Below, in pieces: positions 133 through 53,483 of a DNA stretch of 64,000 nt. The stretch's first letter is position 1; every line of letters begins with the position of its first letter. The DNA comes from Cercospora beticola (Eukaryota > Ascomycota > Dothideomycetes > Mycosphaerellales > Mycosphaerellaceae). The DNA lies in the NCBI RefSeq assembly GCF_033473495.1, contig NC_088936.1:4402001-4466000 (forward strand), given 5' to 3'. The notes beneath the pieces were generated by a model. It worked only from the letters and a program-made list of their open reading frames with translations. It searched no databases and was not told where the DNA came from. The translations under genes were made by a program, and so were the position numbers.

Positions 133-1654
133 ATGCCAATCTTCGCGACATATGGCAAGGATGGTCGAAGAATCACGCAGCCTAACAACGTCGCTCCAAC
201 CATCAAGCGTATAGACGTTGACAATCCGCTCGAAGGAAAGCCGGAGCCTACTGTGCTGATCATCGGAGCTGGTACTTTCGGCACATCTACCGCCTATCAC
301 CTTGCCCAGCTCTACAAAGACCCATCCAAGGTGACCATCATCGACCAATCCTCCAGCCCACCGAAGCTCGCCGCAGCCATTGATGTTAATCGCGTCATCA
401 GAACCGACTATGCCAACAAGATATACTGCGACCTCGCATGCGAGACTATCCACCCATGGTTCTGGTCCGAAGAACTGGGTCCATTCTTCCACAAAGTGGG
501 CTGGCTGATGTACGAAGAAGAAGGCAGCGACCTCAAATCCCGCATCAAATCCACCTTTGAAGGAAGAGGAAGCACTCAAGCCCAAGACATCGACCTCAAC
601 AACATCTCCTCCCGTTGGAACGCACTCCAAGGCACCTCCTCCGAAGGCTTCCAATCCGCCTACTTCAACCCCGAAGCAGGCTGGTGCGACGCCGCCCAAG
701 CAACTCACGCCTTCATGCAAGCCGCCGAACGCAAAGGCATCCGCCGCGAAACCGGCAAAGTAACCCAACTCCTCCACGACTCCACAACCAAAACTATTCA
801 GGGCGCTCAAACCGCCGACGGCCGCACCTTCTACGCCGATAAAACGATCCTCTGCACCGGCCCCTGGACCTCCGCCCTCCTCTCCACCCTCGAAGAATCC
901 CTCTCCCTACCCACCAACCTCCGCATCGAATCCCAAATCCAAGCCACAGGTCTCTGCGCAGCCTACTACAACTGCACCTCAACCGAAATCTCCCAACTCG
1001 ATAACTTCCAACTCCCCGTCGTAGTCTACGGTGGTCTCGGAGAGATCATCCCACCCTCTCATGGAAACAAACTCATGAAATACGCGAATTCTCGCTCTGG
1101 AATTATAAATTCCCACACTCTTCCTTCGGGTCATAAGATTTCCATCCCGGCGGAAGATCAATACTGTGTACCAGAATGCTTGAAACAAGAGACGAAAGCG
1201 ATGATCAGCGAGAAAGTTTTACCTGCGTTTGCGAAGGGTAAAGAACCGGATTATTGGCGTATTTGCTGGGATGCGCAGACTCCGACGGAAGATTTCTTGA
1301 TTTGTAAACATCCGGATCAGGAGAGGTTGAAGGGGTTGTATGTTGCTACGGGAGGCAGCTTTCACTCGTATAAGTATGCGCCCCTTGTCTATTTTGCTAC
1401 GACTGCATGTGACTTCGAAGTACTGACTGTGTTCAATCAGGTTCCTCCCCATCATCGGAAAATACATCCTCAACGTGCTGTACGATGTCTCGAATGGCGA
1501 AGAGAAAGACAAAGCATGGGGCTGGAAAGAAAAGGGACAATGGGTCGACGTTCATGAACGAGGATTGTTGAGTCATAAGAGTGTCGTCAAGACAGAGCTG
1601 CAGGCATTGTTCGCTCGAGGTGGGGGATCGAAGGTCAGTGCGCCTAGGCTTTGA
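133..1654 (+). CDS. FAD-dependent amine/amino-acid oxidase (DAO family), 2 exons
   Basis: Probable FAD oxidoreductase of the sarcosine oxidase/fructosyl-amino-acid oxidase type, about 484 residues. The dinucleotide-binding loop VLIIGAGTFGTSTAYHLA lies near residue 40, and a C-terminal motif, ATGGSFHSYKFLP, appears only after splicing. I place an intron at 1374-1440 (GTATGC...CAATCAG). Reading through it gives an unrelated tail, whereas splicing restores the family-typical SYKFLPIIG segment and runs to TGA at 1652-1654. The family oxidises secondary amines or glycated amino acids and releases H2O2; the substrate cannot be read from sequence. There is no clear PTS1 at the C-terminus (ends APRL). 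The coding strand is strikingly C-rich up to about 1020 and G/T-rich after. Confidence 0.85.
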
Positions 1655-2057
1655 ACGAAAGTCAGATAGTGCGAATTGTTTGAGTCGTAATGAAGTGGGC
1701 TTTGTACATAAGAGGAGAGGGACATGTGGCTTATAGGTGAGAGACATCGATGTTCAAGGTAGCTGTCGATATGTTTAGATTTGCGAACCGCGTATTGAAG
1801 TTTCATGATGGCGTTGTTGATGCGGTAAAGGAGCCGAACTGGTGGTGCGAGAGGAATAGCAGTCCGATTTAACTGATGAGATGCGGGATGAGTCTCAGCC
1901 ACATATATACCTGAGTCCACGGATCGTATACCTCGATTATCGCAGGGCTGCAAGACAGGCCAACGGTTTTGTGCCAGGAAGCTTACTGTCTGTCTGCCGT
2001 TTACTTTAGTTGACCTAACCGCAATGGATAACTCATGTCTCGTGAGCAGCTACCTAC
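1655..2057. other. Convergent intergenic region
   Basis: 403 bp between the 3' ends of the oxidase and the MACPF gene. I see no coding potential; it probably holds both 3' UTRs. Confidence 0.5.
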
Positions 2058-4588
2058 CTAGTCAAACAACCCAGGACCATACTCCTCGCCCTGTTCTTCC
2101 TGGAGGTCCTCCTCATCATGCACAAAGATGACCTTGAACCGCACAGGCTCCAAATTCGGCACACTATTCAAAGCAGCCCAATTTAAAAGATCCAGATTGA
2201 TCAAAGTGCCCAAAACTCCCGCGGTTAGCAATTTATTCTTGTTGAAAGTATCTTCCCCTACTGCGCGCACAAAGTAGTCGCGAGATGCAGGCGTAACACC
2301 CATGATCATCTCATGTGCAGGCTTCCACTTCGACACATCTCCAAGTGCAAAGGTGCTCCGCCAGGTCTCGATTTGAGTTTCATCGACACGCTTACCGAGA
2401 TCGCTGGCTTCGATGAGAGCTTGCATAGACTCGCTCGTATTGGATTTGAGAAAAGCCCAAGCTGGATCGTCCTTGAACAATGAAGCGGTGTCGAGTCTCA
2501 GCATAATTTGAGGATCGACTTTGAAGACCGAAAGCCGAGAGTCGTTTCGTTTCACGACATAAGGCGCGAAGATGGGTGGTACGGTTTTGCTGGTGAAGGG
2601 GCCTCCGTAATGATATGAGTGGCAGAAGAGTCCGACCACCTCTTCATGTTTGATGGGATCGCCGCGGCCAGGAGCCCACGGGAAAGCTCCGAGAGGAGCC
2701 GTCTTATCGGGAAGAGCCTCATTGCGACGTAAAGTCCAGCGGCAAGGCTTGCCTGGGTCCGTTCGGACTTGTCAGTTGGTGGACTTGCCATCGACCCAGA
2801 GACCAGCGAATTGTGCTCCCTCGGCTTGGCTTTGGCGAGCATATGTCTTACCTGGCATAAGATATACGGGACTGTCCGCATACAGTTGAGGCATGATCGT
2901 ATCCGGATCATGGCTCTTCTCTTTATCGGCATCCAGAACAGAAAAGATAGCTTCTTCTCCCTCATCGGCGATGCAAAGATGATTGTCTTTGATCACAACT
3001 TTTCGCCCATCAAGAGTTCGGAACTTCAATTTTCCAGTCCATTTATCAGGCTGGATGCGCGGAATCTGCTGGAACTTACTCTTCGCAATGGTATGGAACG
3101 TACCGCCAATGTTAGGCCATGCAAGAGCTCCGCCGTGTGTGGTCCGTGTGAATTTGCTGATGAGTTCCGGAAGCGCAAGAATATTCGCTTGCTCCATGAC
3201 CCTCCAGTGCTTGGGGTCAGCTACCGAATTCGCCCATGCAGCAGGATTGGCGCAAAGCAACGTATTACCGCCTCGTGCGGACCAAGCGAGTGAAGACGCA
3301 TTTTCAACGGTAGTGTTGCGGTTCGTATCATCTGTAGAAGTGCCTTTGCTGTAGCTCGAAGACACGGAAACGGCTTTTGTTTCGACACTTGCGGCCACAG
3401 CGGCCTGCATAGCGTCCCTGCGCTCCTCTTCTTTGACAGTTCCGAAAGACGTCGCAGACTTGCTAGCAGTCAATTGTCCGCCCAGCTGGATATTACATGC
3501 GAAAATATGGCCGAATCTGGTGTAAAATTGCGCGACCAGACGATTGGCATTGGCCACAGCGCGATCCTGGTCCGGCTCTTTTCCAGCCTTGATGTTCGCT
3601 GAGATCTTGTTTGCTGCATCCTCAATTTTCACCAGGAAGTCAGCACATTCGGTAGTGGCCTCGAGGTTGAGTTCATCAAGAAAGATGCGTGCCCTCGGAA
3701 AATTGTATGTGGCAGTGTACTCCAAGCGATCCTTGAAATCCGCACTGCTCTCACTCTTCTGAGACTCAGAAGAATGTGAAGCAGAAACGCCAACTCCAAC
3801 GTAGGGCGTGGAAGCTCCAACAGAAGCCGATATTGCTTGAGAAGAGAAGCCATTCTGCGCCATTGATCTTTCTACCTGCGTCTTAGTCTCCTTGGTGGAA
3901 ATTGATGAAGCATCAAACACCTCAAACTCTGGTCTGATAGTTTTCGCATCCTTATAAGTGTTTCCCGCCGGTGGTTTGAGCTGGAATGCTTGGAATCTTG
4001 CGCGCGAAAGACCGGATGTGCCGTTAAGAACATAACCATGAAGCATCTTGGTCGTGTCAATAAGATGCTGCCACGCTTCATCATTCAGCTCAGTAGCATT
4101 CACAGCTTTATCGGGTTCTTCAATGTCCCAAGCCAAGTCTTGAACGTGAGCTGCCCCAAACCCGTCAGGTTTTGCGGCAAGGCCCATTCATCTATCACTG
4201 TAGTCTTTGATTTCAGAGTTCAGAGTCATTTCTTTGGGAGCGATGCGTTTGGGATCCTCTGGCGGGGCTTTCGGTTTGAAGCCATCAGTGCCGTAGGTGT
4301 CGAAGAATGCCTTAGCCTGCTGATGACCTCCAAGGCTCGTTGAGATCTCCTTGAAACGAGCAACTGCCGTGTTCATTGCGTCTAAGACTATGGGTCAGCA
4401 AGCGTATGACGAGCCTCACTGAGGCCCTCACCTTGTTTCTCGGCGGCGAGTTCTTTCTCTTTGTCAATGACTGCTGTTAGTGCAGTCGGGTTCACTGGTT
4501 GAGAGGCTCCTTGGCCTGCGACTGGTGCCGAATCCTGCTTTGCCGCAGGCGGAGCCGGCTTCGCCTTTGACGGACCTGGTGGAGCCAT
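2058..4588 (-). CDS. MACPF (membrane attack complex/perforin)-domain protein, 4 exons
   Basis: Predicted protein of about 779 residues from exons 4588-4432, 4387-4199, 4150-2852 and 2752-2058; the lengths sum to a multiple of three. Around residues 328-340 is RFGHIFACNIQLGG, a good match to the MACPF signature (aromatic-G-x-x-F, six residues, GG). It is followed by the W-x-V-x-E region usual in fungal members. The N-terminus is Pro/Ala-rich and has no signal peptide. The central exon contains Ser/Lys-rich stretches like the membrane-inserting hairpins of the fold. The 48-nt intron 4198-4151 has donor GTGATA, branch CTGAC and acceptor CAG. It is a multiple of three, and if retained it places an in-frame TGA at 4190-4188. 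The last intron (2851-2753) has a strong GTAAGA donor. Family members can form pores, but many fungal ones are uncharacterised, so no activity is claimed. Confidence 0.75.
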
Positions 4589-13753: not shown

Positions 13754-14629
13754 TGCAAACGCGCAGGAATCATCTGACAGCAATGAGTCGGTTGCAACAT
13801 CGGATGGCAATACTTCCATGAGAGATTTGGCAAATCATTTCGGAATCATACATTGGGATGCCTGGCGTGAAATGTTTTGCCCTGTCAGTCATCTCACAAG
13901 CAGGAAACGACAGCGTTCATTCAATTTCGTTGATACACCAACACTGGTCCGTCCACGAAATGTCCGTTGACTCTCCGCGATTGAGAAACCCTGATATTGG
14001 AGGTGCTCCATGGAGTTTGCTATCATCCAAGACAACAACACGCTCAACGACGAGAAATTGCTAATTGCGCACTGCACTAGGAGAATTGAAAGTCCACGAC
14101 GTGGTCCATAGGCGCAACGTACTGCGACAAGTGCAACGGAGACTCCGGCGACCATTCTGTTCGAAGTAGCACCTATTCGAGGGCGTCGAAAATCGTGCTG
14201 TCTACATGCATCCAGCATGTACAATCCCAGTGGCATAGTCCCTTGATCATGAGCCACTCAACGGAATATTCGGTCTCCCCACGATACATCATGGCACGAC
14301 CTGACGCATGGAACAGTAGGTAACCAGTAGGATTGCCCACAAACGCGGCCGCATCCAGTACTTCGCAACACCCACGGCGATTTCTTGGCTGACATATACA
14401 TCGTATTCGTCGTATGGCCTCAGCATGCTTGCTGGAAACCTAAGCAAACCCAACTACTTCCTACACATATATGTACTGCTGCATGAGTGCTGATTAAAAT
14501 AATCATACCGGCTCTGGCAAGCAACACGAGATCCACTACCATTCAGCAACATCTCCTGCAGGCAGGAACAATTTCGCTACCAAGCAACATTTCTCCCAAT
14601 CAAGAACTCTTCTATCAAGCAGAAACAAG
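13754..14629. other. Intergenic region with the promoter of the first repeat-precursor gene
   Basis: 876 bp. I see no gene. From about 14110 to 14400 it shows scattered similarity to the region at about 15890-16130 upstream of the second precursor gene, for example a block around CCAGTAGG and a block near ACCCNCGGNGATT..CTTGGCT. This suggests that the promoter was duplicated together with the gene. Confidence 0.45.
14553..14568. promoter_or_regulatory. Palindrome-like element upstream of repeat-precursor gene 1
   Basis: CTCCTGCAGGCAGGAA lies 62 bp before the ATG. It is close to the inverted repeat CTCCTGC-NN-GCAGGAG found twice upstream of the paralogue at 16256-16271 and 16286-16301. It could be a regulator site or a 5' UTR hairpin; its role is inferred only from conservation. 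Confidence 0.45.
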
Positions 14630-15124
14630 ATGCAGTACCATGCCATTTTCGCTATATTGACGCTCTGCGCCGCACAAACGCTCGCCATGCCACTCGAGCA
14701 ACGCAGTGTGTACGATTTTCTCCTCCAGAGACGCGCAGCCGCGGCAATGCGCTGGGGAGCATTCGGATCTGATGGCGATGGCCTGGGCGGCCTAGGAGAA
14801 TGGATCGCAACTGGCAGGACCCCATTCGAAGGCACTTCCGCCGATCTTACACCGAACCACAAACGCGCTGCTGCTGCAATGCGCTGGGGAGCATTTGGAT
14901 CTGATGGCGACGGGCTTGGTGGCTTAGGAGAATGGATCGCAACTGGCAAGACTCCCTTCGAAGGCACTTCGGCCGACTTGACGCCGAATCAGAAACGTGC
15001 GGCTGATGCCTGGTTCGCGGGCTTGCTTGGAAATAAAGGCGACGGCCTCGGCGGATATGGAGAGTGGATTGCTACTGGCAAGACCCCAATCACAGGCACC
15101 AAGCGCTCAGTCTACTACCTTTGA
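14630..15124 (+). CDS. Secreted Kex2-processed repeat precursor 1 (KEP-like)
   Basis: 164 residues, single exon. The hydrophobic start MQYHAIFAILTLCAAQTLA is a signal peptide. After QR and RR sites there are two nearly identical 44-residue units and one degenerate 36-residue unit, each ending in HKR, QKR or TKR. Each unit contains W-G-A-F-G-S-D-G-D-G-L-G-G-L or a variant, then GEWIATG-K/R-TP. No cysteines occur in the repeats. The arrangement fits a Golgi Kex2 substrate that releases several short peptides, as in fungal Kex2-processed repeat proteins. It is a tandem paralogue of the gene at 16343-17167. No family function is known to me for this repeat. It is not a recognisable mating pheromone, because no Trp-Cys pheromone core is present. 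Confidence 0.8.
   Translation: MQYHAIFAILTLCAAQTLAMPLEQRSVYDFLLQRRAAAAMRWGAFGSDGDGLGGLGEWIATGRTPFEGTSADLTPNHKRAAAAMRWGAFGSDGDGLGGLGEWIATGKTPFEGTSADLTPNQKRAADAWFAGLLGNKGDGLGGYGEWIATGKTPITGTKRSVYYL
14735..15106 (+). repeat. Tandem coding repeats in precursor 1
   Basis: Units lie at 14735-14866, 14867-14998 and 14999-15106. The first two are the same length (132 bp) and nearly identical at both the DNA and protein level, so the duplication is recent or homogenised. The third is shorter and diverged. Confidence 0.9.
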
Positions 15125-16342
15125 ATGTTAAGTAGGCATTCAACAACATCGAATGACGACAGATCTGGCAAGCACAAATGCACAGGGGACGTACAACTAC
15201 GCTGGACCGACTTCGGCTCGATGTGCAACTGGGAACGGTACGGAGCGTTATCAGCGAAATCGTGTTCGGAGGCACTTTTGGGCGACTTCAGCAATACAGA
15301 TTCTAGACAGCGTCGGGCGAATAGACGTTATGATTGAAGATGGACGTTCGTTCGAAGCTCGACGAAAGAGTTCACCTCAGCTCTCGTTAAGGAGTGGATG
15401 GATCGTGTCTTTTGCAAGAAGAGGCATGACCGATAACGATGTGGTTATTTCACAGCCTAACGAGTTTGGTAGACAGATCTCGCATTCTCATTGGGCAACA
15501 GCACGCGACTCAAGTTTTGATGTCTTTGGGTAGGTCAATACCGAACGATTGTGTCTCTGATTCAGAGCACCACAGCCGGCCGACAAAAGAGAGCTGCCTC
15601 ATGCATGAGAAGTCAAAGTGTGTGAAAAGTGGCATCATGCGCTATCAATCTTACTAAAGCGAGGAGACAGCACAAGCCTCGTGCCAAATGCTGAATCTGC
15701 TGCATGGCCAAGAAGCAATCGCCAAGCGCCGGGCAACATTGGCTCTGGGGAACTTATTTCAAGGCATCGGTCGTTGTCGAGATAAGATCTTGGCATGCCG
15801 CTGACACATCAGGAAAAAACGGCTGACTTCAAAATTGCACTAGGAAGATTGACAATCCTCGGCCTGGCTCAGAGCCGATTCATGCGAAAAGAGCGAGCAC
15901 ACCTCCGGCGATCGTTGCATGCCAGTCAGAGCATCACAGACCGTACCTTCCAATGGATCAGCACCTGCGATACCTTTCGATAAGCTATTTGCTACTGGTG
16001 TTGTCTCCACGGTGGTTTCGGTCAGCTCACGGTATGATACATGGGCCAGCGCGTGGCCAGTAGGGATGTTCGCAGACCCGGCCGTGAAGTGGCGCACAAT
16101 ACCCGCGGTGATTCTTGGCTCATGAACACGGTCGACTGCGTTCGGTATCTCGAACAATCTTGCACACATGCCCTGCTCACCCAACCATGGCGGCAAGTTT
16201 CGAAGGGTATATAAGGTTGTCTGATTTGTGATCAGGAAAAAGACAGAAGCAACAGTTCCTGCAGGCAGCACCAATCGAGCATCAACTCCTGCGGGCAGGA
16301 GCAACTTGAGAACAACCATCGACGCACATTTCAAGCAACAGA
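15125..16342. other. Intergenic region between the two repeat-precursor genes
   Basis: 1.2 kb. The part after about 15890 resembles the upstream region of precursor 1 in scattered blocks. A TATATAAG box at 16208-16215 lies about 130 bp before the second ATG. I find no separate gene. Confidence 0.5.
16256..16301. promoter_or_regulatory. Two copies of the CTCCTGCNGGCAGGAG element upstream of precursor 2
   Basis: Copies lie at 16256-16271 (TTCCTGCAGGCAGCAC) and 16286-16301 (CTCCTGCGGGCAGGAG, a perfect 7-bp inverted repeat around GG). One related copy sits at a comparable distance before precursor 1. They lie between the TATA-like box and the ATG, so they may be in the 5' UTR. Confidence 0.45.
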
Positions 16343-17167
16343 ATGCATTGTCACGATATTATCGCCATTGTTGCGCTCTGCGCCACGCCAACCATTGCTG
16401 CTCCGCTCCAGCAACGTGATGCGCACGCAATCTTGCTTAACCATTTGAAGCGCGAAGCCGCAGCACGATTATGGTCATCCGATACCGATGGATTCGATGG
16501 ATTGGGAGAATGGCTCGCAACTGGCAAGACCCCATACGAGCGCCGATCTGCCGAATTGATCTCCAACTATAAACGCGAAGCGGAAGCACGCTTTGGCTCG
16601 TGGGGATCTGATGGAGATGGACTCGGATCGCTTGGAGGCTGGATCTTCGGCGACAAATTCCCAGTCAAACGTGAAGCCGAAGCACGATTCGGATCCTGGG
16701 GATCCGATGGAGATGGACTCGGATCGCTCGGAGGCTGGATCTTCGGCGACAAATTCCCAGTCAAACGCGAAGCTGAAGCAGGTTTTGGTTCATGGTCGTC
16801 TGATGGCGATGGACTAGGTTCGCTTGGAGGCTGGATCTTCGGTGACAAATTCCCAGTCAAACGCGAAGCTGATCCAACACGCTGGGGCGCGTTTGGCTCG
16901 GATGGCGATGGGTTGGGTTCGCTTGGAGGCTGGATCTTTGGCGACAAATTCCCTGTTCGAAGACACCTTGCCGACTTGACACCTACTCAGCTCAAACGTG
17001 AAGCCGAAGCACGATTCGGTTCATGGTCGTCTGATGGCGATGGGCTGGGCTCTCTCGGAGGCTGGATTTTTGGCGATAAGTTTCCTGTGCGAAGGGACGT
17101 CGGTAGCGAGTTGACACCACCCCAGAAACGCGCGGCGGAAGCCTTATTGCGAAGTCTGCTTGGTTGA
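16343..17167 (+). CDS. Secreted Kex2/Ste13-type repeat precursor 2 (KEP-like)
   Basis: 274 residues, single exon. It has a signal peptide (MHCHDIIAIVALCATPTIAA), then a leader with HLKR, ERR and YKR sites. Five repeats follow, mostly 32 residues, each starting EAEA or EADP and ending PVKR or PVRR. KR followed by EAEA is the layout of yeast alpha-factor precursors, where Kex2 cleaves after KR and Ste13 removes the EA pairs. The inferred mature unit is about 26 residues, rich in Gly, Asp, Trp and Phe and lacking cysteine, with SDGDGLGSLGGWIFGDKFPV at its end. Two 12-residue spacers (for example HLADLTPTQLKR) recall the unit ends of precursor 1. The gene is a tandem paralogue of 14630-15124. Function is unknown; peptide signal, antimicrobial, effector or wall component are all open. 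Confidence 0.82.
   Translation: MHCHDIIAIVALCATPTIAAPLQQRDAHAILLNHLKREAAARLWSSDTDGFDGLGEWLATGKTPYERRSAELISNYKREAEARFGSWGSDGDGLGSLGGWIFGDKFPVKREAEARFGSWGSDGDGLGSLGGWIFGDKFPVKREAEAGFGSWSSDGDGLGSLGGWIFGDKFPVKREADPTRWGAFGSDGDGLGSLGGWIFGDKFPVRRHLADLTPTQLKREAEARFGSWSSDGDGLGSLGGWIFGDKFPVRRDVGSELTPPQKRAAEALLRSLLG
16577..17095 (+). repeat. Tandem 96-bp coding repeats in precursor 2
   Basis: Three consecutive 96-bp units (16577-16864) are followed by a 99-bp variant unit, a 36-bp spacer and another 96-bp unit ending at 17095. The variant unit 4 carries W-G-A-F-G as in precursor 1, a hint of exchange between the two genes. Confidence 0.9.
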
Positions 17168-17748: not shown

Positions 17749-17830
17749 GCCCGTTTGGCTTAGTGGTACAGCGTCTCACTCGTATATCAGCGTAATGAGA
17801 AGATCCTCGGTTCGATTCCGAGAATGGGCA
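17749..17830 (+). tRNA. tRNA-Thr(CGT): tRNA-Thr (anticodon CGT) with 10-nt intron
   Basis: The acceptor stem GCCCGTT pairs with AATGGGC (17823-17829), with A17830 as discriminator. The D arm starts at 17758. The anticodon stem TCTCA pairs with TGAGA, and the loop gives C-T-CGT-A-A after removal of a 10-nt intron at about 17785-17794, just 3' of position 37. The T arm is CTCGG-TTCGATT-CCGAG. The mature length is 72 nt before CCA. Confidence 0.9.
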
Positions 17831-17858
17831 CTAATCTAATACCCCGAAGGGGTCTGAA

Positions 17859-46351: not shown

Positions 46352-48274
46352 TTAAATCAAAACTTCCGCCAAAGCAACCAGAATAATACTCAAAAGGAAA
46401 GGCCCACTTGCAACCTTCTGTCCTGCAGCACCAGTATATGGCTGGGGAATATGTCCCGTTGGTTGAGTAGGGATATATGTCGTTCCGATACTACCGCCAC
46501 CGTATACCGGCACGCTCGGCGCTGGGCCAGATGCCGTGGCAATCGGGTACGATGCAGGTGGAGCAGGTGCAGAGGTAGATCCAACAGGAGAAGCATCTGT
46601 AGAAGAGGGAGCAGGAGGTGGAGTCTCGTAGCCTAGACCTGGTACATCGTGGGTGCTGCCGCTTTCGGTGACTGTGTAAGTTGTAATCTGGACTTGAGGG
46701 ACGGTTACGGTTGTGACGTATTGGGTTGTGCAGCTGCTGGATGGGATTGTGGCGCCTTGGGATTCGCCGGTGGAGTAGGTTGCTGGGATGACGAGTTCGG
46801 AGGAGTAGGTGATTGTTGTGCAAGGGACTGCTGGTGGTGGTTTACTGTCTCCTGTTGTCTCGGGACTGGTCTCGACTGAAGTAGCCACAGGTTGCGTGGA
46901 AGTCTGGAGGTGTGTTGAGGCTGCTGGGCAGTCTTTGACATCTGGACCACAGCTTGTGATTGTTGCTACGATGGTGCTGTACTCTGTGACGGTCTTGCCT
47001 GAGGACGAAGGTGGCTGTTCAGAGACTGGGGAGTCTGGAGTAGAAGTCGGAGTGTGGTATCCTGTTGCGGGGGTGATGGTCGACGGGCAGCCTGTGATGA
47101 TTGCAGGATTCTCCGGAACATACTTTGCGCAGAGACCCATGAAGTAACCAGCACCAGAGTTGGTGTCATCATCGCTGTCAGACCAAGCGCTGACACAGCT
47201 GTAGACCTTGCCGACAAAGTCGCTGTTCTTGCAGAAGCATTCGTAGTCGGTGTTACCACTGCAGGTAGTCAAGTGCAGCCAGCTGTTGATGCACTTTGGC
47301 AGAACGTCTGGCGATTCTGGCTGCGGGTAGGTGGGAGGCGTTTCCACAGGTGATCCTGTCGTTTGGGTTGAGCTTGAACCATATCCAGGCACCTTCACGG
47401 TTGACGAATTTCCATAGCTGGGCGGATTGGAATACACTGGAGCAGAGGGCTTCACAGGCGAGGTCTCGACACTGCTGGTCGTAGGGTAGCCAGGTACTCC
47501 TTGGGTGCTAGAGCTTGGATAGGAAGATGCGCTTTCAGAAGTCGAGTATTGAGGTGGTGTTTCCGAGCTCGAAGAGCCGTAATTTGGAATTGACGTAGAC
47601 ACAGCAGAGGACTCTGCGCTGGTAGTGCCGTAGGAAGGAGGCTGGGTGTTGCTGCTGGCAGGTGCCGTCGTAGAATAGCTTGGCGGCACAGAGGCAGTCT
47701 CACAGTCGAATTCGATGCTGTGAACGCCAATGTTGCAGCCCTTGCCCTTGCTTTTGCCGTACGGTCTGAATGTCACCTTCTTGGCTCCACCACATTGGGT
47801 GTTCTTGATAGTGGATCCAGTTGAAGCGCAGGTATGAACTTCTTTGCACACCGAGTTGTCAGGCATGGTGTAATGGCATTCAAGTTCCACATCGTCATCT
47901 TGGTCTGAGGAGACTTGATAAGTCTTGATGGACATCTTGTCATCGCCATCACAATCGACAGCTGGTTCATCGTCTAGTTTTCCAGTGATGCACTTGCTCT
48001 GGAAAGTCCTCTTCGTCAAGCTATCGCGCTTTCCGAACGAGTTCGCACAAGTCCATCCAGAGAACTTGTTGCTGCCGTAGTTGTTGAAAGATCCCGTGGA
48101 GAGATCTTTCCAGTCGTACCCATTGGTCTGGTTGGTCGAACACTTGTTGTCAGTGGTATCAGGCGTCGAAAAGTAAGCGCGGTCGCCCCATCCGCCTCCG
48201 TACTTGCCACCTGTGGCAATAACTTGGTGAACTGAAAGGCCGGCAGCAAGGAATGCCGCAGAATGGAAATGCAT
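46352..48274 (-). CDS. CFEM-like, Ser/Thr/Pro-rich GPI-anchored surface protein
   Basis: About 640 residues, single exon. The start MHFHSAAFLAAGLSVHQVIA (48274) is a signal peptide; the in-frame Met 13 codons upstream would bury it. Residues 20-190 form a Cys-containing globular domain. A Ser/Pro/Tyr-rich linker with repeated PSY and PGY motifs follows, then a Cys-rich module (about residues 325-400: KCINSWLHLTTC, YECFCKN, YSCVSAW, GLCAKY) with the spacing of CFEM domains. A second Ser/Thr/Pro region leads to a GPI-type hydrophobic end (GPFLLSIILVALAEVLI). CFEM proteins bind haem or act at the wall; which applies here is open. Confidence 0.83.
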   Translation of the reverse strand: MHFHSAAFLAAGLSVHQVIATGGKYGGGWGDRAYFSTPDTTDNKCSTNQTNGYDWKDLSTGSFNNYGSNKFSGWTCANSFGKRDSLTKRTFQSKCITGKLDDEPAVDCDGDDKMSIKTYQVSSDQDDDVELECHYTMPDNSVCKEVHTCASTGSTIKNTQCGGAKKVTFRPYGKSKGKGCNIGVHSIEFDCETASVPPSYSTTAPASSNTQPPSYGTTSAESSAVSTSIPNYGSSSSETPPQYSTSESASSYPSSSTQGVPGYPTTSSVETSPVKPSAPVYSNPPSYGNSSTVKVPGYGSSSTQTTGSPVETPPTYPQPESPDVLPKCINSWLHLTTCSGNTDYECFCKNSDFVGKVYSCVSAWSDSDDDTNSGAGYFMGLCAKYVPENPAIITGCPSTITPATGYHTPTSTPDSPVSEQPPSSSGKTVTEYSTIVATITSCGPDVKDCPAASTHLQTSTQPVATSVETSPETTGDSKPPPAVPCTTITYSSELVIPATYSTGESQGATIPSSSCTTQYVTTVTVPQVQITTYTVTESGSTHDVPGLGYETPPPAPSSTDASPVGSTSAPAPPASYPIATASGPAPSVPVYGGGSIGTTYIPTQPTGHIPQPYTGAAGQKVASGPFLLSIILVALAEVLI

Positions 48275-49991
48275 TTTTGAAGCAAAGCGTTGCAGATGCT
48301 GATGCTTGGTCAAATAGTATCTATGAAAGAGAAGCTAGAGCGGCGTAACGAGTGAGCCCGCTCTGAAGGAAAGATTGAACAGTGCAAAGAACGAGAAGCG
48401 GAATACTGAGAAGTCTGAAGGGTGTATGAGGGCTGGAACAACTTCCCTTTGTATGCTGCTCAAACATGGGCTCCTTGCGACCAAGACATTCTTCCTAGTC
48501 TGGGACGCCTCACGTGGAGCACCATCAAGCTCGCATCCGCGTGTGTGGCAGATTCAGCGCCATGTTTGACGCCTTCGAGGCTGCAGCCGCGAGGGACGTG
48601 CTGCGTGTCATGCTCGCACAAGCGGCTGCATCACGGCCAGCCGACTGCTCGGGATGCAAAAGTGGCGCTGGGCTCACCCAGATGGATTTTTTTTGGCTAC
48701 TGCAGGAACAGACTCTGCGCCCGATGTCCTGTTTCAAGTTGCACTTTGTCAGGACTGCAGCTCTTGAAGCGGTGGCGAAGGCTGCTCTCAGGCTAGACTG
48801 GGTATGCGATCTGCTTGCTAATGCTCCTCCTGAAGACGTTGGTTTCGAGCCTGCTTCAGTAGTGGAAGCTGGTGCATCGTTCCCTTTGCTATGCACGCGG
48901 ATCATCACCTTCTCGGCGAGGCAATGGTCTGGGCGTCTTCCGCGGCGACAGCGATACGTGGTAGCGAGCCACGCGGAGACACGCTCGATTGTCGTGGTCG
49001 CTGCACCAGAGGTTCTCGTTGTCCAGTGTCTGCTGTTGTGTAAGGACAGAAGCGCTTCAGCCATGGAAGTGTGGAGTATGATATTTTGAGCGCGGCGGAG
49101 TCTTCTGAAGCATGATTGGTCGGGTGTCGAGGCTTGGCGTGCTTCAGCTTCGCGCGTGTCTCACCATTGTTCTCCTGCCAATCGGTCGTGTCGACACCAC
49201 GCCCGTCCTCACATCACTCTCAGCACACAGCGCGCGCGACAAACGGAGAGCGCAGGTAGTTGATGTGTCCGTCACTCACCTCGGCTGCCAAGTCCGTCAA
49301 GAGTGAACATCATAGCGGAAAATGCGCGACTTCCTCCGCGGCTGATTGCCAACGTCAATTGCGACTGCTGCCAGCGGTTTGTTATCCTCCGCGTGTGGCA
49401 AGCATCACTCGTTGGTCTGTTGAGCTCGGAGTACGCGCAATGCTCATCAGCCACGACCAACGGACAGACGGTCATCGGGCATCCCACGCCCACGAGAACA
49501 AGCTACTCGGTCACCGCAGACAAGGCGCCAATGGAGCCGAACGCTCTGAAATATGCTACGCCATCTATCTGGAGTAGAGTCTCGCCCAACGACGCTCTGG
49601 CATCAATAAGTCAACCGTGCTCTCCAATGGCGCCTATACTGCATCACAATTGAGCCACATGGCTGGAATGCTTCAGGCATAACTACGAATCAGTCGCCAA
49701 GAATGCCTTTGCCCCGCGCTACAACAGACATATTTTCAACAAAGAAGGCGAAGAATCTGGTAGGACTCGCTTTGCATGAGGTCGAACCGCCCGCACTTCG
49801 AGAAGTATTCCACGAAAATGACGCAGGCTCACCAGGTGGCATGCATACAGTCTCCAGATTGAGACGTGCGTTGAGTCACGTGAGTCACGAACTATGATCA
49901 CGGTAATGGGTGGCCTTAAACTCTACCGCACTTCTGATTCTCTTCGTGACTAGGACGAAGCGCACTTTCACTTTCACAGCCGACATCTAAC
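48275..49991. other. Long intergenic region
   Basis: 1.7 kb. Two overlapping frames of about 180 codons lie on opposite strands at 48514-49089; neither shows a recognisable domain, signal peptide or conserved motif. I treat the region as non-coding with low certainty. Confidence 0.35.
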
Positions 49992-51148: not shown

Positions 51149-53483
51149 TCAAACCTTCGGCGCCCAACAAACTTCACCATAAATGCGTTGGACGTCCAAT
51201 CCCTGTTCTGTAACCTCGCCTCGATACAATGTACATTGCACGGGCACGACGATGTTAGGCAGCGGCGGTTCCACCAAGTTCTTCACCATGACGCCTTCAC
51301 AGCCATCCGTTCCATCGCATTCGAGTTTGCATGATTCGTCGCCGAGTTTGTTCGTGACGGCAATGGTGGTTGGAGCACTCCAGGCTCCGGCTTGGCCGCA
51401 GGTTGTTATGATTGGGGGGCGGGTCTGTTTGCGGGTTAGCTGGGGTTCGAACAACAAAAGGAGTAGAGAAGGAGGATCGTGGAATGATGAAGGGGGGACA
51501 GAATTGTGCTCTTTCGTTGAAGAGGTAGAGCAGAAGGTGTGTGGATCCTGTTGAGATTTGGAGTTGGATGGAGTGGTTTCATCTTACCGTGGTCTAGAGA
51601 GAAGAAGAAGAAGATTAGCATGTGTGCTTTTTGTATAATATTTTGTGAGTGTTTGAAGCATATCCAGTGTCGTATGTTGCAAATCATTTCCATGTTACAG
51701 CTATATACTCGTCGTTAACAATCTCCTCCTCCGTCCCTGCCATCACCAGTTGATCCCACAAAGACTTGGGTTGTCCAGACAGTCTAGCACTGCCGTGCGA
51801 AGACACGGTGCGAACCAGGACCGACTCTCTGAACTTCTCCAGCAACCTGAGTACATTCGTTGGGTCCAAATGCGTCGAGATCATCTCTGGGAAGCACGAG
51901 AACGTTCTCGCAATCTGGAACTTCAATGCACCAGTTCTGGCAAGCTTGCACAGAACCTTCGTTTCTGGTGCGGAGTTTGGTTGGGGCGGCGAATTGTCCG
52001 CGAGCTCCGCAAGTCCCGATGGGGGGTTGGGTGGTGGTCGATGGGATCGTTAGCTGGGTTCACGAGAGCGAGGCCGGACTTTCCGGGAGTGATCGAATTC
52101 CCCGAGGCATTTATAGATGAGAGGACGAGAAGCATGTGCTGTGCTACGTGGGCAGTGGGGGAGAGCTTACAGTAGTGGTGGAAGTGGTCTAATCAGTTAG
52201 TCAGCATGCTCTTTCCATGAAGACGATCGCTGCTAAAACTTACAGTAGTCGTTGTGGAGGTTGTTGTGGTAGTAGGTGGAGTTGTAGTCGTTGTCTAACA
52301 TGCTTAGTGTTGCTTCATGCAGTCAGCGAATTCAATCATCTCTTACTGTAGTAGTAGGTTCAGTTGTAGTCGTGGTCTAGAACAATCAGTATCAAAACAT
52401 GGGGTCAGATAGTATCAATCAGATCTCACGGATGTTGTTGTTGTGCTGTCCGAGGTAGTTGTTGTAGTATCGGTGGTAGACGTAGTCTAGAACAATCAGT
52501 ATCAAAATATGGAGTTAGATAGTATTCGTCGTGTCTCACGGATGTTGTTGTCGTGCTGTCCGAAGTAGTTGTCGAAGTTGTAGTATCGCTGCTAGTTGTG
52601 CTGCTAGTCGTGCTTTCAGAAGTACTCGTTGAAGTTTGAGTGCTAGTCGTGCTGTCGCTAGTCGTGCTTCCGTTGGTAGTCGTGCTATCGCTGGTAGTCG
52701 TGCTGTCTGAGGTAGTGCTCGTGGTATCCGATATCGTTGTGCTCGACGTCTGGAAACATTAGCATCCATCTAGCTGTCTAGTGTCCATTACTCATACGGT
52801 CACTGGCGTAGTGGTCGAGGTCTGCAAATCATTAGCCTGGGTCCAAAGTGTCGTTGCCAGTCCGATCCCAAAGTCGAATCAGGCGATACTTACAGTTGTC
52901 TCAGTAGTGGTAGTCTCCGATTTGGTAGTTGTGGACTTAGTAGTGCTCCTAGTTGTCGATTTTGTAGTGCTTCTGATGGAAATTGGTCAGTCTATAATCA
53001 CTTAAGCTGTGCATGCCGGTGAGTAACATACGGAGTAGTGCACTTCGTCGTCGTCTTTGTATAGTATTTCGGTGGGTACACAGTCTTTGTCACCGTCTTC
53101 TGTGGCACGTAGCAAGAGCACACAGTCTTCGCAGCAGTCTTTGGTCCATTCTTGACAGAAGACAAGAGGCATTCCCTGCGGCCCTTGTTACATTTGGTTG
53201 GCTTCGCCGGGTACCCAGCCGGTTTCTCGTAACCCGGCTCTGGGAGTGCAGTCCTTGGTTGGCGATGACCATAGCCTTTGGCAGTTACGGTGACCGTTGC
53301 AGGGTATTGCTTCTTGCAGTATTGCTTCGCTGGCTCATAGTAGGCCAGCTCAGCATACTTAGAGTACTGAGACGACTTGCAGACACCACCCTTGTTGCCG
53401 TAGTTAGGATCAGCGATTGCACTGCCGCTCACAGATTGGAGGGCGCCGAGGAGGAAAACGAGTGATGCTGTCAAGTGGACCAT
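51149..53483 (-). CDS. Thr-rich secreted protein encoded by many phase-0 micro-exons
   Basis: Exons that I can place with confidence: 53483-53032, 52972-52894, 52821-52798, 52749-52540, 52486-52430, 52376-52347, 52294-52244 and 52188-52171, then 51593-51588 (6 nt) and 51424-51149. Exon 1 gives a signal peptide (MVHLTASLVFLLGALQSVSG) and a Cys/Tyr-rich head. The next seven exons (18-210 nt) encode almost only Thr, Ser and some Pro. From the second intron on, each visible junction is phase 0 and each exon begins with a Thr codon. The last exon is a Cys-containing domain ending YGEVCWAPKV. Between 52170 and 51698 the minus strand reads as plausible coding in two frames that switch near a six-base C run (G run on plus, 52021-52026), so this part may hold a frameshift or an unplaced intron. 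The structure of that middle part is uncertain. Confidence 0.65.
52377..52600 (-). repeat. Duplicated exon-intron unit in the Thr-rich gene
   Basis: Introns 52539-52487 and 52429-52377 are both 53 nt and agree at about 44 positions, including the whole 3' part (TTTTGATACTGATTGTTCTAG). The exon ends before them are also near-copies (ACTACNTCGGACAGCACNAC..ATCC). A unit of about 110 bp containing exon plus intron was therefore duplicated in tandem. Confidence 0.85.

Follow-up and report, generated by a model that had tools for sequence, protein, structure and literature searches.

The window analysed here is a 64,000-nucleotide stretch of the Cercospora beticola genome (C2:4402001-4466000 of a 36-Mb, 10-contig genome) that contains two neighboring plus-strand genes, from now on referred to as G1 and G2, both encoding predicted secreted repeat precursors. 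Positions are window positions unless they carry or follow a contig prefix. G1 (14630..15124) and G2 (16343..17167) are single open reading frames (ORFs) with ATG starts encoding 164 and 274 amino acids, found exactly where an initial annotation of this DNA had placed a tandem pair. Among the related proteins discussed below, P0006 is 68% identical to G1 over 128 columns, and P0009 and P0010 are 79% and 77% identical to the two ends of G2. Both precursors start with a predicted signal peptide (MQYHAIFAILTLCAAQTLA in G1, 14630..14686; MHCHDIIAIVALCATPTIA in G2, 16343..16399; both plus strand), recognized as a hydrophobic N-terminal stretch with a 10-residue Kyte-Doolittle mean of up to 2.66 (G1) and 2.87 (G2). 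Cleavage sites were assigned by reading: the stretches end in TLA before MP (G1) and TIA before AP (G2), with small residues preceding the putative site. The KR- or RR-bounded repeats previously described are present in both precursors. Dibasic sites are located at residues 34, 78, 122 and 158 of G1, while G2 contains ten (seven KR and three RR). A protein search of the organism's own genome with G2 returned three matches, all of them within G1 and G2, and the two repeat arrays score 409 and 501 in Tandem Repeats Finder (TRF).

G1 consists of three units and G2 of six, all on the plus strand and given here including the closing dibasic pair. In G1, units 1 (14735..14866) and 2 (14867..14998) differ at 20 nucleotides and 2 amino acids, and unit 3 (14999..15106) is divergent; all three close with KR. 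G2 begins with a divergent, G1-like unit (RLWSSDTDGFDGLGEWLATGKTPYE, 16454..16546, closing RR) followed by five canonical ones: unit 2 (16577..16672, KR), unit 3 (16673..16768, KR; eight nucleotide and no amino acid differences from unit 2), unit 4 (16769..16864, KR), unit 5 (16865..16963, RR) and unit 6 (17000..17095, RR). The initial annotation had counted 2-3 and 5 copies, which requires a small correction to 3 and 6. Its observation that units are cross-similar between the genes holds: G2 unit 1 aligns to the three units of G1 with scores of 124, 124 and 74, and to three further units of G2, those tested, with scores of 66, 58 and 71. All units share the core SDGDGLGxLGxW, or more widely, roughly W/F-G-x-F/W-G/S-S-D-G-D-G-L-G-x-L-G-x-W-I. 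As noted before, the core contains no Cys; neither Cys nor PYGxPxG is found in any G1 or G2 unit. Four of the six G2 units start with EAEA, in line with the earlier statement that most do, and the other two with EAAA and EADP. G1 units start with AAAA, AAAA and AADA.

Comparison of the units at the codon level indicates that the peptide sequence itself is under selection. When the 14-residue core is compared across the nine units, the ratio of nonsynonymous to synonymous differences per site (pN/pS) is 0.239 within G1 (3 pairs), 0.285 within G2 (15 pairs) and 0.356 between the two genes (18 pairs), with pS values of 0.52-0.65. Seven whole-unit pairs were further compared, drawn from six of the nine units (two from G1 and four from G2, with the divergent unit of each gene and unit 5 of G2 set aside) and not independent of one another because they share units. 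In all seven, 8-25 nucleotide differences translate into only 0-2 amino acid changes, an outcome matched by none of 5000 neutral draws per pair. Few residue changes despite this many nucleotide differences mean that it is the peptide that is selected.

Homology searches, one of the checks proposed in the initial annotation, were run from G1, from G2 and from an alignment of six rows; each scored 5140-7954 candidates, and together they identified at least 10 related proteins (P0003-P0012). The relatives among the matches listed retain both the reading frame and the SDGDGLGxLGxW motif; a named example among them is Slin15195_G127440 of Septoria linicola (Mycosphaerellaceae). Given the TRF scores, this retention of frame and motif, and repeat differences that are mostly synonymous, the G1/G2 pair is confirmed as a genuine repeat precursor pair and not a product of chance. 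Some relatives combine the core with other segments. Cys-containing segments resembling SPCNGDAWDxDGLDGKTW flank the units of P0004, P0005 and P0008, while P0011 has a single SDGDGLG core unit amid several FWKSLFNNPYDSEFSFG units. When searched against the present genome, P0008 finds G1/G2 in nine of nine matches and P0011 in seven of nine, the others being a gene at C9:178505 and a weak match at C5:4880976. The former locus (L070, C9:178505-178705) is a separate precursor gene, probably with an intron, whose three FWDTIKNLFSNWDGSRSG-type units resemble the second core of P0011.

The relatives also retain the predicted cleavage sites: a dibasic site precedes every core unit found (25 of 25 in 12 proteins, G1 and G2 included). 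For this count, core-holding segments between successive dibasic sites were collected, near-duplicates and fragments included; one P0008 segment with a Cys-type core was left out, although it starts with EA and would fit at position 2. Ala or Pro follows the dibasic site at position 2 in 25 of 25 segments and at position 4 in 19 of 25; the corresponding counts for positions 1, 3 and 5 are 5, 5 and 0. At position 2 after a lone Lys or Arg, used as a control, Ala or Pro is found in 27 of 100 cases, 17 of which are KFP, KTP or RTP inside units. The pattern corresponds to the X-Ala/X-Pro (X-A/X-P) dipeptides removed by Ste13-type dipeptidyl aminopeptidases. It is satisfied by 14 different tetrapeptides (including AAAA, EAEA, EADP, NPVP, HPAP and AAGP), and it thus appears that the chemistry is conserved and not the letters. 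Candidates for the Kex2- and Ste13-type enzymes could be identified in the genome. The one match to the proprotein-convertase P domain (P_proprotein) lies in a long frame that has a hydrophobic segment near its C-terminus and is Kex2-like by reading, and there are five DPPIV_N matches, two of them covering the full domain and one of these two with the N-terminal hydrophobic segment expected of Ste13. The precursor architecture and the Kex2/Ste13 logic initially put forward are supported by sequence, and strengthened by the relatives and the codon analysis.

A precursor layout as in alpha-factor, with Kex2 and Ste13 sites before 25 of 25 core units, together with a Ste2 gene in the genome (one STE2 match), raises the question of whether G1 and G2 could be this lineage's genes for an alpha-type mating pheromone, too diverged to be recognized as such. 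Genome searches with three patterns for usual pheromone cores (C..PGQ.C and WC...GQ.C cores) would leave room for this. The patterns matched 2, 10 and 9 times and their reversed controls 0, 5 and 3 times, so that by numbers the widest pattern is not truly enriched, and none of the matches reads as a secreted dibasic-repeat precursor. However, the G1/G2 cores lack Cys, are 25-38 amino acids long and come from two diverged paralogues, and their units carry neither C-x6-C nor PYGxPxG, the marks of an alpha-pheromone core. Furthermore, a better candidate is encoded elsewhere. The pattern KREA[ED]A, which misses precursors with other dipeptides such as G1, has 27 matches in the genome against 9 in the reversed control, four of the 27 being located in G2. 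Reading 19 of these loci, the other eight lying within arrays already read, revealed three other repeat precursors, including L064 (C9:1211486, 615-1727, minus strand). This 370-residue precursor has seven KKIQVARPRFGFCGVAGSNC units with KR/RR and X-A/X-P sites, in a Kex2/Ste13 layout like that of G1 and G2. The seven copies end in RFGFCGVAGSNC (F-C-GVA-G-SN-C), with a C-x3-G-x2-C spacing of Cys and Gly that is also that of known alpha-pheromones, e.g. WCGRPGQPC (PMC10569646), and two-Cys pheromones have been reported in 13 Dothideomycetes outside the Pleosporales (PMC6339444). By motif and layout, and not by a curated family, L064 is probably the alpha mating pheromone gene, and a mating role for G1 and G2 is therefore very unlikely. 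A Pfam PHP_C match to L064 (27.1 bits, cut-off 21.3) was rejected as a chance sum over the repeats, its best stretch being 16 residues and none significant alone, and two NCBIfam matches (E 0.00017 and 0.00053) fall far under their cut-offs. A further Kex2/Ste13 repeat precursor was noted on the minus strand at C3:3246110-3246417 (L046-L049); its two-Cys units (e.g. LLRLPGMPALDLKGCKSPYCVSLKQKR) are preceded in the same frame by repeats of a different set.

Based on these observations, we propose, with a probability of about 0.78, that G1 and G2 are tandem KEX2-processed repeat proteins yielding linear, unmodified, non-mating extracellular peptides. The precursors would enter the secretory pathway via their signal peptides, Kex2 would cleave after every KR or RR, a Kex1-type carboxypeptidase would strip off the Lys and Arg left behind, and the X-Ala/X-Pro dipeptides would be taken off by a Ste13-type dipeptidyl aminopeptidase. 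The main G2 products would be RFGSWGSDGDGLGSLGGWIFGDKFPV-type peptides of 25-27 amino acids and the G1 product a 38-residue relative, which would act outside the cell, linear and unmodified, in a role other than mating. The sequences support processing well; secretion, cleavage and trimming as events, the lack of modification and the role are deduced from them.

An AlphaFold2 model based on 12 aligned rows is consistent with a precursor that is cut up. Its mean predicted local distance difference test score (pLDDT) is 50.2, with values of about 32-41 over residues 91-210 and higher confidence mainly at the N-terminus and in the last 14 residues. The repeats as a folded domain, an alternative raised in the initial annotation, thus find no confident fold in this shallow-alignment model. 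A related explanation is a secreted protein or peptide in which the repeats fold or assemble at surfaces, in place of a diffusible signal; Ustilago Rep1, whose peptides form amyloid-like fibrils, offers a comparison. Rep1 is itself a KEX2-processed repeat protein (KEP; PMC9769878). Gly-rich units with paired Trp residues might self-assemble. However, a dibasic site and an X-A/X-P dipeptide precede every core unit found, spacers and unit number are variable, no fold is confidently predicted, and the STE13 signature is reported to be absent from Rep1 (PMC6339444); overall, a folded or surface-assembling product appears rather improbable.

Several points weigh against the proposed processing into linear peptides. 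The relatives are few (at least 10) and several resemble fragments. Among dibasic segments without a core, 7 of 33 do not start with X-A/X-P and 26 do (7 of 66 dibasic sites dropped out of this segment count, having fewer than four residues after them or overlapping another site). DPPIV-type genes would have other substrates too and are no proof of trimming here. Since only 12 rows were aligned, the low model confidence is weak evidence of disorder. Lastly, a cytochrome P450 gene is located ~1-1.2 kb downstream of G2 on the opposite strand.

The P450 is relevant to the possibility that the peptides are cyclized or oxidized by a nearby enzyme, either UstYa/DUF3328 or the adjacent P450, making them ribosomally synthesized and post-translationally modified peptides (RiPPs). 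Secreted Kex2-repeat precursors also feed ustiloxin-type RiPP pathways (PMC7329392), and 63 UstYa matches are found in the genome. However, none of the 63 lies in the window, and the closest on the contig is ~175 kb from G2. In the 2020 survey, DUF3328 genes are on average 3.09 genes away from the KEP gene; they accompany 22% of KEPs and, bar three exceptions, not those that carry a mating factor or pheromone annotation (PMC7329392). Given the absence of UstYa matches from the window and this survey pattern, G1 and G2 look to be of the unmodified, linear kind, and modification by a neighboring enzyme is improbable. A candidate UstYa-type RiPP locus was noticed elsewhere, on the minus strand at C4:727860-728395 (L050-L054), where a 603-residue frame carries 30 QYVWSPKAA copies between KR and X-A sites; UstYa matches at C4:731404, 733251 and 737134 are located about 3-9 kb away.

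If G1 and G2 release linear, unmodified peptides as proposed, what these peptides do is a separate question. A self or interspecies signal comes close to an even chance, and a surface or wall peptide is unlikely. With the same processing, the peptides could also be antimicrobial or host-directed effectors, a possibility that overlaps with the proposed reading, differs from it in role only, and is somewhat less probable than a signal. Slin15195_G127440 comes from a plant pathogen, Septoria linicola, the cause of pasmo of flax, which would fit an effector. In the same direction, axenically grown Coprinopsis showed no phenotype for any of six KEP knockouts, for which their authors suggest roles towards the biotic environment (PMC9769878). 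Most antimicrobial peptides are cationic, whereas six of the predicted cores are acidic or neutral (net charge 0 to -3), and the cores are conserved among units and not fast-evolving. On balance, and with modest confidence, a non-mating secreted signal is preferred to a peptide of antimicrobial or host-directed function. More tentatively, and with the odds against it, we hypothesize that the SDGDGLGxLGxW peptides, trimmed by Ste13, serve fungi of the Mycosphaerellaceae type as a family of peptide hormones that has its own receptor and no part in mating, and that the precursors are modular cassettes co-releasing distinct signals; the cassette idea arises because P0011 mixes SDGDGLG and FWKSLFNNPYDSEFSFG units and its second core has a relative in L070.

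The two genes arose by duplication together with upstream DNA. The region upstream of G1 (14073..14629, plus strand) is homologous to that upstream of G2 (15836..16342, plus strand; TATATA at -135 from the ATG): 14073-14390 aligns with 15836-16120 at 59% identity over 321 columns and 44 bits, compared with a maximum of 26.8 bits in 100 shuffles. The gene and this noncoding upstream DNA were therefore duplicated as one. P0006 is closer to G1 (68% vs 45% to G2) while P0009 and P0010 are closer to G2 (79% and 77% vs 48% and 58% to G1), and the duplication therefore appears to be older than the split from the fungi of these three proteins. Repeat turnover, as suggested initially, is visible in the variable spacers and unit numbers and in P0004 and P0005, which are almost the same protein but have three and two core units, respectively. 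Unless the assembly is at fault, this suggests that close relatives have gained or lost repeats.

The gene content is fungal, and Pfam-matched neighbors include a Rictor homologue, a uricase, the P450, a kelch protein, an SDR protein and a zinc-cluster protein. A search for 5.8S rRNA gave no match. A probably intron-bearing tRNA gene, whose anticodon ARAGORN left undecided, is located just 3' of G2 (17749-17831). Further features of the window are an ORF with a fungal MACPF-like domain (2775-4187, minus strand), a 660-residue ORF with a CFEM domain (46355-48334, minus strand) and an imperfect tandem repeat cluster with periods of 110, 24 and 18 bp (52366-52971).

The peptide had been described as novel, which stands at the level of the family, within the scope searched, and not for the kind of gene. 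No Pfam match above the curated cut-off was found for G1, G2, P0004, P0007, P0011 or P0012, no NCBIfam match for G1, G2, P0007 or P0011, and no PDB sequence match for G2; the weak Pfam and NCBIfam names returned for G1, G2 and P0011 are all below cut-offs. An EF-hand calcium-binding interpretation of DGDG was dropped by eye. Three core strings do not occur in open-access full texts. Nor is SDGDGLGxLGxW one of the conserved motifs that the Results text of PMC6339444 names, and the main texts of PMC6339444 and PMC7329392 do not contain the string GDG, although their supplementary tables may hold the family. Among the papers listed on effectors of Septoria linicola, on pheromones of Cercospora and on Kex2 repeats of Zymoseptoria, nothing was recognized as this family. 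KEPs were named in 2019 (PMC6339444) and catalogued across fungi in 2020 (PMC7329392). They are secreted proteins of three or more near-identical units with Kex2 sites in between, some with Ste13 signatures and most of unknown function (PMC6339444, PMC7329392). KR or RR separates the units in both genes, and near-identical units number five of six in G2 and two of three in G1, which makes G1 borderline. Judged by their layout, the two genes form a family within the known KEP class, whose peptide family is not found in print within the texts searched. They are of interest because the boundaries of the peptides can be clearly predicted, selection on the peptide can be measured and the Ste13 signature is well supported, in a gene that probably does not encode a mating pheromone. 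The X-A/X-P signature alone should thus not serve to annotate mating pheromones, and if the peptides are signals, they would offer a testable non-mating peptide-hormone system in filamentous ascomycetes.

Compared with known systems, G1 and G2 share a Kex2-repeat precursor, in their case predicted to be secreted, with UstYa-dependent RiPPs (ustiloxin, phomopsin; dikaritins) but have no nearby UstYa match and a core of 25-38 residues, whereas UstYa-dependent cores are short and Tyr-containing. With alpha-type pheromone precursors (MFalpha, Ppg1) they have in common multiple copies, Kex2 sites followed by X-A/X-P and the lack of a UstYa partner nearby. They differ in lacking a C-x6-C or PYGxPxG core, in their longer peptides and in the presence of a better pheromone candidate elsewhere in the genome. 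The Ustilago maydis repellent Rep1 likewise consists of Kex2-processed secreted repeats (PMC9769878), a likeness by description and not by sequence comparison, and differs in having no STE13 signature (PMC6339444). The closest correspondence is with KEPs, with which G1 and G2, as read from the genes alone, share the repeated units and the Kex2 sites, on precursors predicted to be secreted.

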